Positions 32,048 to 40,320 of a stretch of 64,000 nucleotides of DNA are shown one piece after another; the first letter of the stretch is position 1; every line of letters begins with the position of its first letter. The notes under the pieces are model-generated. The model was not told the DNA's origin. It did no database searches and worked only from the letters and a program-made list of their open reading frames with translations. The DNA comes from Citrus sinensis (lineage: Eukaryota; Streptophyta; Magnoliopsida; Sapindales; Rutaceae). The stretch lies in NCBI RefSeq assembly GCF_022201045.2, contig NC_068562.1, positions 1,922,001 to 1,986,000 on the forward strand, read 5' to 3'. The translations under genes were made by a program, and so were the position numbers.

Positions 32048-34562
32048 TTACCTCTGCAAACATGACAAATGAAAATCCTCAATTGAAGTATACGAAGGAG
32101 GAAGTGTATCCTTTGCTGACACCAGCAACTTGATCAACTCTTCTATTGGACGTTTCAACATGAAAACATCATCAGCTAGATTCTTTGTTTGCCAATCATC
32201 TAATATCCTGCAGAAAATCTCAAGTCTCTTAGACTAATTAATAGAACAGATTCTGGTATCACTCAACTGGCACATACAACACTTATTAAATAATGTTAGT
32301 AGAAAAAAAAAAAAATTCTTTCCAAAGATTTTTCTACAATAAAGGAGTTGAGTGGCAATCTTGAGCCTAAAATGAAAAGTGCAAACAGCTGGTTTATGAA
32401 AAAAGAGTGATGATACAGTCATAAATTTTTGTACAAATTTATTTTGTACAAATTAATTTGGTATTAACTCATTGGTTGAATAAAAATACAAAATAATAAA
32501 ATCAAATCATATGGATCAAGAGATATATAATTCAACCAATTTAATCATGCCACCAGTTTGTACCAAAAAAAAAAAAATTGTACCAAAATTTGTAACTATA
32601 TTATTACTCATAAAGAAGACTAACCTTGATTGAGATTCTGAATTACTCCCACAATCAGAAAACAGAACCTTAATAATAGGCTGTAGATCCAACTTTAGAA
32701 TTGGCCCCGTAGTGCTGTCCATGCCCGAACAATAACCAGTACAGCACCAAGCATTTGGATTCAAGAGAACAATTTGTAGCATGGGAGATTTGGTTTTCAA
32801 ATCCCTTACCAGAGTCCGAAATGATAATTCGTCTTTTGCACTTTCCAGAAGCTGATTCGTGAACATTCTCTCCAAAGTATATTTCCTGCCGATGATGAGA
32901 AAAGTTAGTTTACCATCCAGCAACAAAAATAAAAGTCAAGCTCTATTAAGAGGTCCTTGTCCAAAAATAGCACCGTATATGTTGGTTAGAAAATTTTACA
33001 TAACGTTTGCTTACCGGAATTTGTCATCTGATCCACTGATAGGTAAACAAGTGGAAATGTAACACTTAAAGAGTCGAACCCCACCATCTATAGGGGCATC
33101 ACTGGTACTAGAAGGGTATGCTCCAAGAAAAGTTAAACAGCAGGGACACAGAAATTCAATCCACTCAATATCCTTTGAGAGATTATAGGATCTAGCCATG
33201 AAAATGTTTCCGAGAAAGCCATTACGAAAAGATCTCTGATCTGCCGTGTTTCTCTCAGTTTTTTGGTACAGAGAAGAAGATTCAGACAGAGTAGGTTTAC
33301 AACCTTCACCAACATGATCTTGAATTTCCTGAGTTGCATGAACACAACATCCAGGGGCAGAAGCCACATTTTCAGATGAACCAGATACCGGTAATGTGCA
33401 AAACAAGCTGTCTCCGCTAGTTTCTTTCTCATTAACATCAAATTGCTGGGTTACAATAAAGTTTTCATCCTTAGGACCCATAAAACTTAATTTTCCACTA
33501 AAATCATGCACTAGCTCATTCTGGTCATCACAGCCAGCAGTTTTTCTGTAAATAATTCCAGGATCTAGTGCAGATCCACATGTAACATCTTCAACAGTTG
33601 AGGCCAGTCCAGCCTGGCACTTTCCGCCACCAACCCGCTCAGGAAAATTGCATCCCACAAGATCATCCTTGAAAAGGGTAACAGTTGTACAATTTAACAG
33701 GCACATACTCGTTACACATGTGTAGCAATTTGCATACCTAGTTACCAACTTCTCACTTATGCCTCCAAATGAACAACAACAAGCTCCAAACCAGTTGTCA
33801 GCAGCCTCTTGCCAGTTAACAGATGGCATCTCCACAAAATTTCTACATTTATGCATTAAAGAAATTAAAAAAAAAGGAGAGAAACAAACCATCAGATTGA
33901 TGTCCAATGCATAGCAAAGCTCATAAAATGGCTATACAAAAAAATTCTTACCTAATAGGTGTTTTAGTCAACTTAGTCGAGCAATTTCTGCAATAAAAAT
34001 GTACACCTTCCTTCTTCAATGATAACTTCTTTATATCTAATTCATGTTGAATGTGCATAACACACATGTTAGAGCACAATGGCTGCCATGTGCTTATAGT
34101 TTATGATCTCGGAGCACAAATGACAAAACAAAAAAGAAATAAGTACAATAAATGCGAGTCACCAGAATCCATCAGCAGTGGTGTTGACAAGTGAGAGTCG
34201 GCAATTTGAGTCAATCGAAGCACGGAATCAGAGCTTGCGACAATCGGATGATCAACGGGAAGAAGCAAGACGAGCTTAACTTCAATGTGGTCAGCCAAAG
34301 CTCGGTAACTAACCGGGGACTCGGAGTCGATCAAAACTTTCGGAATGGGAACTAGCAGCGAGATTTGACTTTGCAAGTCTTGTTGCTGAACCCAGGTAAT
34401 GGAAACGTGATGTTTGGGTAGATTGAGATTGACTTCGAGATTTTGACATTGGTTTGAGGTGTTTGTGTGAGTATGCGAATCGAAGACAAATAATTTGAGA
34501 GTTGGAGAGTGAGACTGAGCTTCCCACGTGAACCGCCATTTTCTAGGGTTTTTGATTGCCAT
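32048..34562 (-). CDS. UBE3D-like E2-binding protein (HECT_2 family)
   Basis: Five exons: 34562-34163, 34036-33952, 33842-33015, 32885-32625 and 32207-32048. All introns are GT..AG and phases agree; the CDS is 1734 nt (577 residues). Cys-rich motifs of the family appear in order: FYCRNCSTKL, NWFGACCCSFGG, LCPCCLTFLGA, then a C-terminal block with DLKTKSPMLQIVLLNPNAWC, VLFSDCG and the ending DFHLSCLQR. Members bind E2 ubiquitin-conjugating enzymes; in animals UBE3D binds UBE2C and has been reported to act like an E3. The plant role is not established to my knowledge. The third exon is unusually long and carries a low-complexity linker between the Cys clusters. Confidence 0.87.
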
Positions 34563-35414: not shown

Positions 35415-35900
35415 CTACAGCATAAACAAGCCATTATTAAATGGAGGCACGGTGATGGTGGGCTGACTCAAATAGGGGTAATTGAAAGTGTCACTGTTCC
35501 CCAGGTAATCATCAACAATGAGCTCGTTAGAGGTGCAATTAGCCAAAAATTGAAGAGTAGCTGGCTGATCAAAATAAACTGCGTTGGTTGAAGCAATGAG
35601 TCCATTTAGAGAATGGAGCCTGTGTTGGAGCTGAGCAAGCTGAGACCTGAGAACAGCGTTTTCATTCATAAGGTTCGAGTAAGCTTGAGTGACAAGGCTG
35701 ATCATAGCACGAATCTGGCCATTTTCCTTCTGGTAACGGCTAATATCAGCAATTAAACGATGGAAATATTCCTGCTTTCGCATCCTGGAACGGCGTGCAG
35801 CTTCACGATTGGCCTTCATTCTCCTCTCACGATAATCATCAGAGGTTGAGTTTTGAAGCATGTCTGACCTAATAGAGTAGTTTCCACTAGAAGAAGCCAT
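35415..35900 (-). CDS. bZIP transcription factor, divergent S1 group
   Basis: An intronless frame of 161 codons, which is the usual structure and size for S1 bZIPs (AtbZIP1/2/11/44/53). The basic region at about 22-43 contains KANREAARRSRMRKQEYFHR; the invariant Asn31 and Arg39 (N-x7-R) needed for ACGT binding are present. Compared with the usual S1 core (NRESARRSR), Ala replaces Ser at 34, and the stretch before Asn is RERRMKA rather than KRKRMIS. A zipper of about six heptads follows (46-98), with LRSQLAQLQHRLHSLNGLI typical of the group. S1 factors are translationally repressed by sucrose through a leader uORF and form heterodimers with group C bZIPs in starvation responses. The leader uORF is present (36010-36165). 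The sequence looks diverged from its family but intact. Confidence 0.9.
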   Translation of the reverse strand: MASSSGNYSIRSDMLQNSTSDDYRERRMKANREAARRSRMRKQEYFHRLIADISRYQKENGQIRAMISLVTQAYSNLMNENAVLRSQLAQLQHRLHSLNGLIASTNAVYFDQPATLQFLANCTSNELIVDDYLGNSDTFNYPYLSQPTITVPPFNNGLFML

Positions 35901-36009
35901 CAGATGACTGTGAGAGTATGTGGACTTTGTTTGATCCGATCCAATAGTATAGTAAAAGCACGTATATATATAGAACCCTGCTGAACCTGGTGCTATTAAT
36001 AATGCTTAA

Positions 36010-36165
36010 TTAAAATGAAGTGACTGTTCGTGAAAACATATAAAACCAGTATAAGAACACAACAGAGAAGGACTGAACTATGTTGACTCGGAGCCTGTTA
36101 CTACTTTTTATAGCAAAATATGAGAAAATCGTTTTACTTGGTGGTGGAAACATGGCAGAAAACAT
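36010..36165 (-). CDS. Sucrose-control peptide uORF in the bZIP leader
   Basis: A 51-codon frame starting at ATG 36165 (a second in-frame ATG at 36153) and ending 109 nt before the bZIP ATG. Its C-terminal part, VQSFSVVFLYWFYMFS, is the conserved sucrose-control peptide of S1 bZIP leaders (HLVQSFSVVFLYWFYVFS in the family). Known members stall ribosomes near the end of this peptide when sucrose is high and so shut down the main ORF. Here the frame continues for six more residues (RTVTSF) where other members stop right after the Ser. The codon after Ser is CGA in place of TGA. Confidence 0.9.
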   Translation of the reverse strand: MFSAMFPPPSKTIFSYFAIKSSNRLRVNIVQSFSVVFLYWFYMFSRTVTSF

Positions 36166-36201
36166 GATCAAGAACAAGTTATTGAGAAAAAACAAAAACA
36201 A

Positions 36202-39200
36202 AAAAACATTAATGGAGGGAGATGTATTACGGAGTTAGTAATAACAAGGACTGAGATCAATCCAAGGATTTTTGAAAAGAAATGAAAAGAGCTAAAGAAA
36301 GAGAGAGACACACACAAAAAGTTCAAAGCAAAAAAGGTGACAAAATGAAAGCCGTTTTGACGAGAACTTAAAATTGGATTTTATTTATGACTAAAGTTAA
36401 TTAATGAGGGTGTTCATAAGTGTTTTAGTTTAGAACGGGCTATTTCCAATCTTAAAAAAAAAAAAAATTAAACACCCTTATGTTAAATTTTGTATCAAGT
36501 ATAAAATTTGGGTTGAAAAGGAATATCAAGACTCTTTTTTTTCCATAATACTCTTTGAATATAGTAATTAGAAAATTAAATTTAAAGTTTTTTCAATTAA
36601 TATAAATTTAATATTAATAATATAATCTATCTATTAAACTAATAATATTAAATTATTTTTAACATTTAAAATAATATTAAAATTTTAAATTATTAATATC
36701 TTTTTAATGCCCTGGGTTAAATAGATTTTACAATTAACAAAATACGTCCCTATTAATAATACTGAAATTATTTTTAAAATAATTTAATTTCAATTTTAAT
36801 TTATTTATTTTAATATTATGTTTCTATTTATTATTAAAATTACTTTAATATAATAAAATAGGTCTAATAGATTGTAAAATATAAAAATATTTTTTAAATA
36901 TGAAAATTATTTTAAAATTTATATATTATTACATTTAGTATAATGTCGTATTTCTGTTTATTATAAAATTTTGAAGTCAATATTTTTGGGTTTATAGAGT
37001 GAAATGATATTATAGTAAAAAGGGGATTTTGATCCCTTATTAAAAATATGGAGGTTCTTGTGACTATTTTCCTAAATTTTGAAGGTGTTAGTATCTTTTT
37101 TTCCTATATATTATAATATTCATTTCTCAAACATGTAGTAGGTTAAAAAAAAAAAACTAGTTTATAAGGTACATGAGATAGAAAATGTATAACATTACAT
37201 TAACCAATTCCTGCAGTTTTACTTTTCAAGAGAAAAAAATAGCTGATTAAGCATTTAATTTAAATTATAATTTGAAATATATGGCCCCATATTTATCTTT
37301 TTTTCTTTAACCTTTATGCAACAATAATGCATTCCCGTTTGATCATTTGAAAGAAAGAGACTATTGGGAAAACTTAAAAGCTCCATAACTTTCTTTCTTT
37401 TTACTTAAGCATGAACCTCAATCTCTCATATCCTCAAATTTAAACATATATGTCATTGGATTTAAACCATTATCCTGTTACCTTCAATACAAGAGCCGAC
37501 TGACTAACTATTCTTTAGGAAAGAAAAGTTTTCTAACTTTAGATTATAATCACTTGAATAAAAAGAATTATTAACTTGTGTATTCTACACTAAAAAAGAT
37601 TGTCGTAAACTTAAACTTAGCCTAGAAAGCATATTCTCCGCAGATATGAGATTTTCTCCCTCAGCTTTGGCAGGCCTTAAGGTGTTGCCACAACCTTTTT
37701 TTTTTGTTTTTTCCGGGATTCATGACTGTTATTGTTATTATTGAGCAGGCAACCACTAGCAGCTGATATAGTCTTTGGGTGGCGAATGATTCCATATTGG
37801 TTTGTTAATCTTTTAGAGAACTTTGCGATCAGACTCCATGGAGTTCACATCACAGATGATTTAATTGCCACTATATTCTCTCTAGTTTCCGGTACTTTTC
37901 AGGTTCAGTGAAAATAACGACATTGTCTATAAATTAAAATTGGCTAATTTCGGTACGATAATGGTTTTCAAGCTATACATTCTTCTGATAGTATATATAT
38001 GTTTTTTCACCAATTTTTTTTTTTTTTGAGTTTCCCTGCATTGTTCTATAATATATATGATTCTTCTAAATGGTAAAAGCTGATTATATATGCTTTCGTG
38101 AATGTTTCATGTTTTTATTTGGAAGTATGTTATATATGCTTATAAATTTATGGACAATATAAAATTTACCAATCGACGATGGCTATTTACTAAGTAAAAA
38201 TGATTGAACTATCCTTTGAAGATTACGGAACAAGAACTAAATTATAGTAAATGTGAGGAGTAAAGCATGATCCAAATTAACCATACTATAAACTGAAAAG
38301 AAAAAACAAACAAGCAAACACGTTCGCTAGCTTTCTCTGGAAGGAAGTGACTGAAGAAGCTTTTACTTTTTTACTTTTTGTTTATTTAATCCTTATGAAT
38401 TATTGTGGTCAGCAAAATGTATGTAGACAGTAGTAGCGATACTTCTTTCGGAAGCAATAACTTACAATTGGTGAGGGGTATTGTAGAATGTTCCAATATT
38501 CGTTCAGCTTTGTCTTGATTTATCATGGAGTTTTTACCTTTGTAATTGTACGTACAATGACACAATCTCCCTAGTGGCGGTTTCCTTTCCTCTTTGGCCT
38601 TTGCTTATTTGCTATGCATGCTCGCAGTGCGCTCTAGAGTCCCATAGCATTAACTTTGTCAGTCTTATCTGATCATTAAAGTTTCTCAGGGTTGCTTTCT
38701 TTCACATGTAAATTAATCTCGAGCTGTTGTGATGAATTCTTGGTATTACTTTTAGTCGAAATTACTCTTCACTGAAGAATAGAAACATGGCGTGGTTAGA
38801 CTTCTAATAGAAGCCTTCATAGAGCAGCGGCTTAATTTAACTATAAGCCAGAACTGAAGAGTGATTAATGCATTACATAGTATGGTATCAACAATTGACT
38901 AGGCATGTTTATAATATATATAGTGAAATCATTACTCATCATGAAAAATAAGTGCCAACTGGATAAAATATTCTCGTTCATTTTTATCTTTTGGTGGGCA
39001 ATTGTTGCGAAAATAATTCAATAGACTGATCAATGCAGTTGTTAATAAACGCATAAACTCACCATGTGTTTACAGTAGTCGAATTTGGAACAAGCCTCGC
39101 TAGATGTTAAAGCTATGCACACGCCTCCCTTTTGATAAAGATATGAATTAAGATGGGGCTTACTTCTGCAGCTAGACGGAGCTTTGTTTCAGTTCTGACA

Positions 39201-39514
39201 TAAGGGTTATATAGGCTTTTAACTTTTTATTTTGTTTTTTCGTTTACTAATAGAGGTTCTAATTAAGAGTCCAGCAACGTAGTTTTGGCCTCTAACTAAT
39301 AGGTGAAATATATAACCAGATAACATCCGGTAGTACGTAGTTACATATAGACATGCAGACCAAGTCCATGACACTTCCATCTCCCATCTTATCTAAGAGC
39401 ATCCATTAATTGTAAAATACTAGAAATTAGAACACATGGGTATAAAATAAAAATGGCATTAGCGGGAGGGATAGTGCGTTGATTGGGGAAACTGGGGGTT
39501 CCCAAGGTAGTGTT
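36202..39514. other. AT-rich gap between the two bZIP copies
   Basis: About 3.3 kb without a gene. The part from 36400 to 37200 is extremely AT-rich with many short homopolymers. The remainder has ordinary intergenic composition. No terminal repeats or target duplications were evident. Confidence 0.5.
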
Positions 39515-39850
39515 CAATGAGATGGTCGGATAGAACTGGAAGCAGCATTAATCTTTTCACAGACAAGGGGAAGGGGAAGCCTCGGCCTAGGGTTTTGGTT
39601 AGCCCTAAGAGTAGCATTCTCAGTTGCAAGTTGGCAGCAAGACTGGCGTCACGCGCTCAAGCGAGCGCACGACTGTGTGTTTTCCTCCTTGAGATGGTTG
39701 ATGAGAGCCTTAAACTCATGCAACTTCTCCAGCTTCCTGATCCTGGAGCGACGTGCCGATTCTCAACTTTTAATCATTCTTTTCCGCCTTTGTTCCATAT
39801 CTTGAAGACGCTTCAAGTCCTCGTCACTACTGCTTCTGTTTGGAATCATC
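39515..39850 (-). pseudogene. Decayed tandem copy of the S1 bZIP gene
   Basis: Read on the minus strand from the ATG at 39849, the sequence gives MIPNRSSSDEDLKRLQDMEQ, then RRKRMIKS, a stop, and ESARRSRIRKLEKLHEFKAL. This is the S1 basic region (RKRMISNRESARRSRMRK in live genes), with the codons around the invariant Asn replaced by a stop. Further on, ENTQSCARLSA is followed by another stop, then ATENATLRA corresponds to the zipper segment AENAVLRA, after which similarity is lost. With the uORF relic at 40271-40320 it shows that the unit once included the leader. It keeps the more standard ESARRSR core, unlike the live neighbour. Confidence 0.85.
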
Positions 39851-39916
39851 ACTACTGAGTCTGGCCTAAGGCCAAGAGTGTTTCTGTTTCCACCAACGCC
39901 AACCATAACCCGAAAT

Positions 39917-39965
39917 AGTTTCTATATATGTACGTATGTATATAGAAAGTACATATATAGAAACT
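39917..39965. repeat. Perfect 17 bp inverted repeat in the pseudogene leader
   Basis: AGTTTCTATATATGTAC at 39917-39933 is mirrored exactly at 39949-39965 with a 15 nt loop. It lies in sequence separating the bZIP relic from its uORF relic; that spacer is about 300 nt longer than in the live gene, so extra DNA has been inserted here. Confidence 0.7.
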
Positions 39966-40270
39966 GGAATTAATAAATATACTTGGTGTGAATGGAAAAG
40001 CTCCGAGTCCGAGCCCCAGGCGTGCAATTTATTTTGAAATAAACAGTTATGCGTACAAAAATAATGATTAGTTCGAAGGAGTATAAGATAATGTAAAAAA
40101 AAATACTAAAGAGAGAAAGACGAGAGAAAGTGTGTTGAAAAAAAAGAGAGAAGGCTGGGTAGAGAAAGAGCAAAATTCTCATCTTTTTTCTCTCTTTAGC
40201 ATTACACATATGTAAAATTATAGATGCACATAATTCATGTTTTGGGATAACCAAATGAAGTGACAATTAT

Positions 40271-40320
40271 TCATGAAAATGTATAAAACAGGTATAGAAA
40301 ATTTCACTTAGTACGAAGAG
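40271..40320 (-). pseudogene. Relic of the sucrose-control uORF
   Basis: Aligned with the live leader, the minus strand reads TACCTGTTTTATACATTTTC followed by ATGA, giving YLFYTFS and then a TGA stop, where the live copy has YWFYMFS and then CGA. The downstream phrase GTCACTTCATTT is the same in both copies. Codons farther upstream (the VQSFSVV part) are deleted or altered. This supports duplication of gene plus leader. Confidence 0.75.

Follow-up and report, generated by a model that had tools for sequence, protein, structure and literature searches.

The window, i.e., the whole 64,000-nt stretch of the Citrus sinensis genome that was analysed (C7:1922001-1986000 of a 300-Mb genome, which is also the single source of all paralogue comparisons below), contains a main ORF for an S1-type bZIP protein and, 109 nt 5' of it on the same strand, an extended sucrose-control (SC) uORF, with TATA-like motifs located upstream of, inside and downstream of the uORF. 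SC peptides are a well-known means by which plants turn off certain regulators at high sucrose. A decayed copy of an S1 bZIP gene lies in tandem with the live one. The features are collected in Table 1 together with the SC-uORFs of three intact paralogues, here designated C5, C8 and C3.

Table 1. Features of the SC-uORF locus in the window and the SC-uORFs of the intact paralogues.
Feature	Position	Strand	Content and context	Basis
Main ORF, S1-type bZIP	35415-35900	minus	161 aa, no internal stop	ORF list, Pfam, heptads
Spacer, uORF stop to main ATG	35901-36009	minus	109 nt, vs 214, 201 and 141 nt in the paralogues	
Strict TATA-like motif in spacer	35972-35963	minus	TATATATATA; +193, ~70 nt before main ATG	consensus match
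Extended SC-uORF	36010-36165	minus	51 codons; MFSAMFPPPSKTIFSYFAIKSSNRLRVNIVQSFSVVFLYWFYMFS + RTVTSF, TAA	ORF list and sequence
Extension and new stop	36010-36030	minus	CGA ACA GTC ACT TCA TTT, new stop TAA	codon and flank comparison
CGA at stop site	36028-36030	minus	TAA, TGA, TGA, TGA at this site in four other copies	codon table
Last 14 codons, conserved part of SC peptide	36031-36072	minus	SFSVVFLYWFYMFS	codon comparison and random-placement test
Strict TATA-like motif inside uORF	36105-36112	minus	TATAAAAA; +53	consensus match only
Short upstream uORF	36168-36209	minus	MFFCFCFFSITCS; offsets -44 to -2, stop two bases 5' of SC-uORF ATG	sequence
Weak TATA-like motif	36382-36389	minus	CATAAATA; 224 nt 5' of uORF ATG, pyrimidine-rich stretch after	consensus match only
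Decayed tandem S1 bZIP copy	39480-40300	minus	head-to-tail, 4 kb away	blastn, reading frames, protein comparison
C5 SC-uORF			41 codons, TAA; spacer 214 nt to S1-type main ORF	
C8 SC-uORF			40 codons, TGA; spacer 201 nt to S1-type main ORF	
C3 SC-uORF			28 codons, TGA; spacer 141 nt to S1-type main ORF	

The main protein matches the Pfam families bZIP_2 (7e-10) and bZIP_1 (1.1e-9), both over the curated cut-off, and carries the N-x7-R-x9-L pattern. Its closest matches in the genome, apart from the self-match, are the S1 copies on C8 (47%) and C5 (41%), and a scan of viral contigs found no relatives. A nine-row bZIP tree places the window gene weakly with the S1 copies (72/87, marked as weak, and with a long-branch warning for this gene), while the order of the copies inside S1 is left unresolved by the nine sequences. 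The d positions of the zipper read L Y I V L L L L in the window protein, compared with L L I T I L L L in C5 and L L I A I L L L in C8. In the Tajima test with C3 as outgroup, the window protein has 22 unique changes vs 5 in C5 (chi-square 10.7) and 25 vs 4 in C8 (chi-square 15.2), and the comparison of C5 with C8 gives 10 and 4 (chi-square 2.6). The rate of evolution of the window protein is thus clearly higher than that of C5 and C8 and, given this rate and the Tyr residue at the second zipper leucine, a change of dimer partners is possible. An ORF of 293 codons immediately 3' of the bZIP gene (33011-33892, minus strand) gave no match to Pfam at E 0.01.

The SC-uORF closes with the codons TCC TTC TCT GTT GTG TTC TTA TAC TGG TTT TAT ATG TTT TCA, followed by CGA ACA GTC ACT TCA TTT TAA. 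The preliminary description had read this as the SC peptide running through CGA into six added codons, and its coordinates, strand, peptide and codons are all reproduced here. Relative to the paralogues, the window peptide has Met in place of Val near the end (codon 36037-36039, minus strand). The same codon constitutes a new in-frame ATG (MFSRTVTSF), which could act as a tiny uORF of its own if transcription starts within the SC-uORF. Further upstream, an internal Met of the paralogue core, found in C5 and C8 and presumably the internal ATG that was edited in strawberry, is replaced by Ala, and the first ATG sits four codons farther upstream. Divergence is greater in the upstream half of the core, with FAIKSSNRLRVNIVQ in the window vs FMINSSLRRRTHLVQ in C5 (8/15 alike), and part of the Arg-rich stretch is changed. 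Plant uORFs of at least about 50 codons can trigger mRNA decay, and such decay is a possible side effect of the length of the window uORF, at 51 codons vs 28-41 in the paralogues.

The same four SC-uORFs, in the window and in C5, C8 and C3, were returned by two protein searches of the genome, with no further locus, and the three intact relatives of the window uORF match it with E values of 1.2e-8 to 4.5e-4. The decayed copy is absent from the matches of both searches, and further decayed copies may have escaped. A degenerate DNA pattern for the SC sequence, with at most one mismatch, gave 1,219 matches in the genome, below the 1,685 of the reversed control; four of its 31 exact matches are the known SC loci, and no SC-uORF was found at the 11 examined among the 27 others. 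In the decayed copy, the uORF remnant reads F L Y L F Y T F S, then TGA ATA ATT GTC ACT TCA TTT (approximately 40296-40250, minus strand), and the bZIP frame is broken by two in-frame TGA codons, with a basic region that is partly legible (ESARRSR). The live and decayed uORF sites align with 79.5% identity over 44 bp in a blastn comparison within the window (E 4e-4). At the protein level, the decayed copy is only slightly closer to its live neighbour (42/111) than to C5 (39/119), C8 (41/121) and C3 (31/111).

All four of the other copies found, three intact and one decayed, have a stop codon at exactly the site of CGA. The available text of a 2016 paper (PMC4960570) states, with reference to an earlier study, that the stop of S1 uORFs has an invariable position in angiosperms and a different one in gymnosperms. 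Because of this position being called invariable, and because all four other copies stop there, the loss of the stop in the window uORF is to be regarded as derived, most simply through one T-to-C change. These comparisons bear out three earlier proposals: that S1 leader peptides usually stop directly after the Ser residue, that the decayed copy 4 kb away retains TGA at the same codon, where the codon-level comparison agrees, and that the change arose in the live copy. The further suggestion of the preliminary description, that the moved stop could weaken or alter sugar repression, is a prediction. A change in the decayed copy instead of the live one is ruled out by the stop in the four other copies.

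Similarity between the window copy and the decayed copy extends past the stop position, where all 12 bases of GTCACTTCATTT are common to the two, a score matched by one of 2000 dinucleotide shuffles. The corresponding flank of C8 gives a weak signal (45/2000 shuffles scoring as high), and those of C5 (1762/2000) and C3 (1871/2000) give none. Compared with the decayed copy, three bases (ATT) are missing in frame from the window copy, and TGA to CGA is one transition. Since homology to the decayed copy, and weakly to C8, continues beyond the stop, the extension is former 3' flank that would now be read through, and not an insertion; an inserted extension is ruled out by the flank homology to the decayed copy. 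Synonymous change provides no date, as the main ORFs are saturated or near it in all six pairs.

The last 14 residues of the SC peptide are identical to those of the window at 13/14 positions in C5, 13/14 in C3 and 11/14 in C8, and an end resembling SFSVVFLYWFYVFS is present. The underlying codons differ from those of C5, C8 and C3 by 7, 11 and 9 bases, which change 1, 3 and 1 residues, respectively. When equal numbers of changes are placed at random, so few residue changes arise with P 0.00075 for C5 and 0.0023 for C8, and in 0/20,000 placements for C3. The likeness of the peptides is not due to chance, and the last 14 codons have been under selection at the amino-acid level. This constraint is a history summed over the whole divergence, and as such shows past use of the peptide, not use since the stop was lost. 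Four residues of AtbZIP11, Ser-29, Ser-31, Leu-35 and Tyr-39, are listed as thought to be essential in the available text of PMC4960570, and counterparts of all four are kept at positions 1, 3, 7 and 11 of SFSVVFLYWFYMFS, as matched by residue-number spacing.

The reading that we tentatively prefer is that the window contains the SC-uORF of a fast-evolving tandem S1 bZIP gene, that its stop was lost by a T-to-C change, and that weaker sucrose repression of this gene can be expected. The end state is read directly from the codons; as for the order of events, the simplest course is that a T-to-C change made an Arg codon of the conserved stop behind the final Ser, and translation would then proceed across six codons that were once 3' flank and end at the following TAA. 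With the SC peptide kept, the usual sensor would be placed in the ribosome tunnel with CGA in the A site, and a tRNA would have to act at a position where a release factor normally does. Ribosomes on uORF2 of AtbZIP11 reportedly stall at the stop codon, to judge by the title of work by Yamashita in 2017, and from this it would follow that sucrose acts on elongation instead of termination in the window uORF. We predict a weaker, leakier pause, then ordinary termination six codons on, with weaker sucrose repression confined to this one S1 bZIP and normal repression of the three paralogues. Certain observations argue against this outcome. If the loss of repression were long past, the SC peptide should show decay, and the last 14 residues show none visibly; in addition, transcripts devoid of the uORF could arise from the TATA motifs that lie within and behind it. 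Furthermore, a moved stop alone does not predict loss of repression, because two S1 uORFs from gymnosperms, in which the stop lies elsewhere, still mediate sucrose repression of a reporter in Arabidopsis cells, to a degree similar to that of AtbZIP11, according to the available text of PMC4960570. Judged from these gymnosperm uORFs, the position of the stop may be irrelevant to repression.

A rather unlikely alternative is that sucrose repression is fully kept, either because elongation at CGA or close to it is arrested by the SC peptide as effectively as termination is, or because the stall occurs at the new stop six codons later. The continued conservation of the SC peptide would agree with full retention, but the known stall in AtbZIP11 is reportedly at the stop codon itself. 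The two repressing gymnosperm uORFs lend further weight to this alternative, as does the fungal arginine attenuator peptide, which depends on conserved residues and not on their position as far as can be judged from a review seen in part (PMC11550727). In the same partial source, the natural stall of the attenuator peptide is at the uORF stop, and a primary title cited there speaks of regulating elongation. Against full retention, stalling during elongation, as opposed to termination, is known for few eukaryotic uORFs (PMC9305500, available text), and the stop position is said to be invariable in angiosperms (PMC4960570). A distinct outcome, in which sensing has shifted from termination to elongation such that the SC peptide stalls the ribosome at the Arg codon CGA, release and termination follow six codons on, and the gene has a sucrose threshold of its own among the four S1 paralogues, appears decidedly doubtful.

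We also consider it unlikely that the uORF is a relic bypassed by most transcripts, with transcription initiated from the TATA motifs of the uORF itself or of the spacer; such bypass would leave the stop free to drift. All three intact paralogues have strict TATAWAW motifs within 600 nt 5' of the uORF (C5 at -223 and -561, C8 at -391 and -200, C3 at -306), whereas none is present in the corresponding 600 nt of the window gene, where the strict motifs are at +53 in the uORF and +193 in the spacer. The motif TATAAAAA starts in the Ala codon that replaces the internal Met of C5 and C8, and the Ala-Ile-Lys codons spell GCTATAAAAAG (36105-36114). The spacers of C8 and C3 are devoid of TATA motifs, which also speaks for bypass, but that of C5 has three, and the match in the window spacer has a chance of 0.145 (200 shuffles). 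On account of the shuffle result and the C5 spacer, the TATA-like motifs are weak evidence, yet they leave room for bypass. The fast evolution of the main protein (22:5 and 25:4) points in the same direction, as does one survey, seen in part, in which uORFs are present in just 5/10 poplar, 3/7 tomato and 2/5 maize S1 bZIPs (PMC11120861); since only some members have uORFs in these species, loss of SC control may be common. The amino-acid-level constraint on the SC codons opposes bypass, as does the weak motif CATAAATA, located at -224 and thus close to the C5 offset of -223, which together with the pyrimidine-rich stretch is a candidate promoter from which the complete uORF would be transcribed.

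It is improbable that the gene is becoming a pseudogene like its tandem neighbour, with loss of the stop among the first scars: the neighbour is broken by two TGA codons, in the live gene the main ORF evolves at an accelerated rate and Tyr replaces one of the zipper leucines, but 161 codons are free of stops, the basic region and the remaining zipper positions are kept, the Pfam scores exceed the cut-off and the end of the SC peptide is intact. A sequencing or assembly error, or a rare allele, is very improbable: CGA and TGA are one base apart, and a single-base error could still account for that codon, but the adjacent codons also differ (Val to Met, and ATT missing relative to the decayed copy), so that the divergence of this site exceeds a single base call. 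In our judgement, a weakened sucrose response is the most likely outcome, followed by full retention through elongation arrest, with bypass of the uORF in third place.

A natural weakening of the response could matter, because edits of the strawberry SC-uORF raised reporter output by 22.0 to 53.3% (five values) and sugar content by 33.9 to 83.6%, according to the available text of PMC7470447. If repression needs the stop codon, the gene would escape from it and yet keep the sensor, as a natural counterpart of the sugar-raising strawberry uORF edits. If instead repression persists, the nascent SC peptide would be able to arrest elongation, which would help to settle whether sensing depends on termination. 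Among the literature matches listed, which did not extend to figures, supplements or most subscription text, there was no earlier account of such a variant, of an extension of an S1 uORF or of citrus S1 bZIP uORFs, and the letters of the SC peptide gave no match in literature text. The alignment figures of PMC4960570, PMC8795868, PMC11120861 and PMC7470447 may hold other exceptions to the stop position.

As for the S1 bZIP SC-uORFs in general (CPuORF homology group 1, with AtbZIP11 uORF2 and tobacco tbz17), the window uORF has an SC end that agrees with C5 and C3 at 13 of 14 residues, keeps the four residues thought to be essential, and precedes an S1-type bZIP. It differs from them in the missing stop after the final Ser, the six extra codons, the Val-to-Met replacement, the changed internal Met and Arg-rich stretch, and the 109-nt spacer. 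Because CGA occupies 36028-36030 where all four other copies stop, the window uORF is, as judged from its codons, a variant and not a standard member of the homology group. If repression is kept, it would resemble the fungal arginine attenuator peptide (Neurospora arg-2, yeast CPA1), in which metabolite-dependent arrest is reportedly independent of position in the available text of PMC11550727; the two peptides are unrelated in sequence and ligand, and the likeness is one of analogy only. Similar to the S1 uORFs of the gymnosperms Picea abies and Pinus taeda (PMC4960570, available text), the stop in the window uORF is displaced from the angiosperm position. The gymnosperm uORFs differ at two of the four essential residues and their repression has been measured, whereas the window uORF keeps all four and is known from sequence. 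Despite the Val-to-Met replacement and the changed upstream half, the window uORF isolates the stop better than these gymnosperm exceptions, in which several positions differ at once, and it constitutes a natural test of the role of the stop in sugar sensing.
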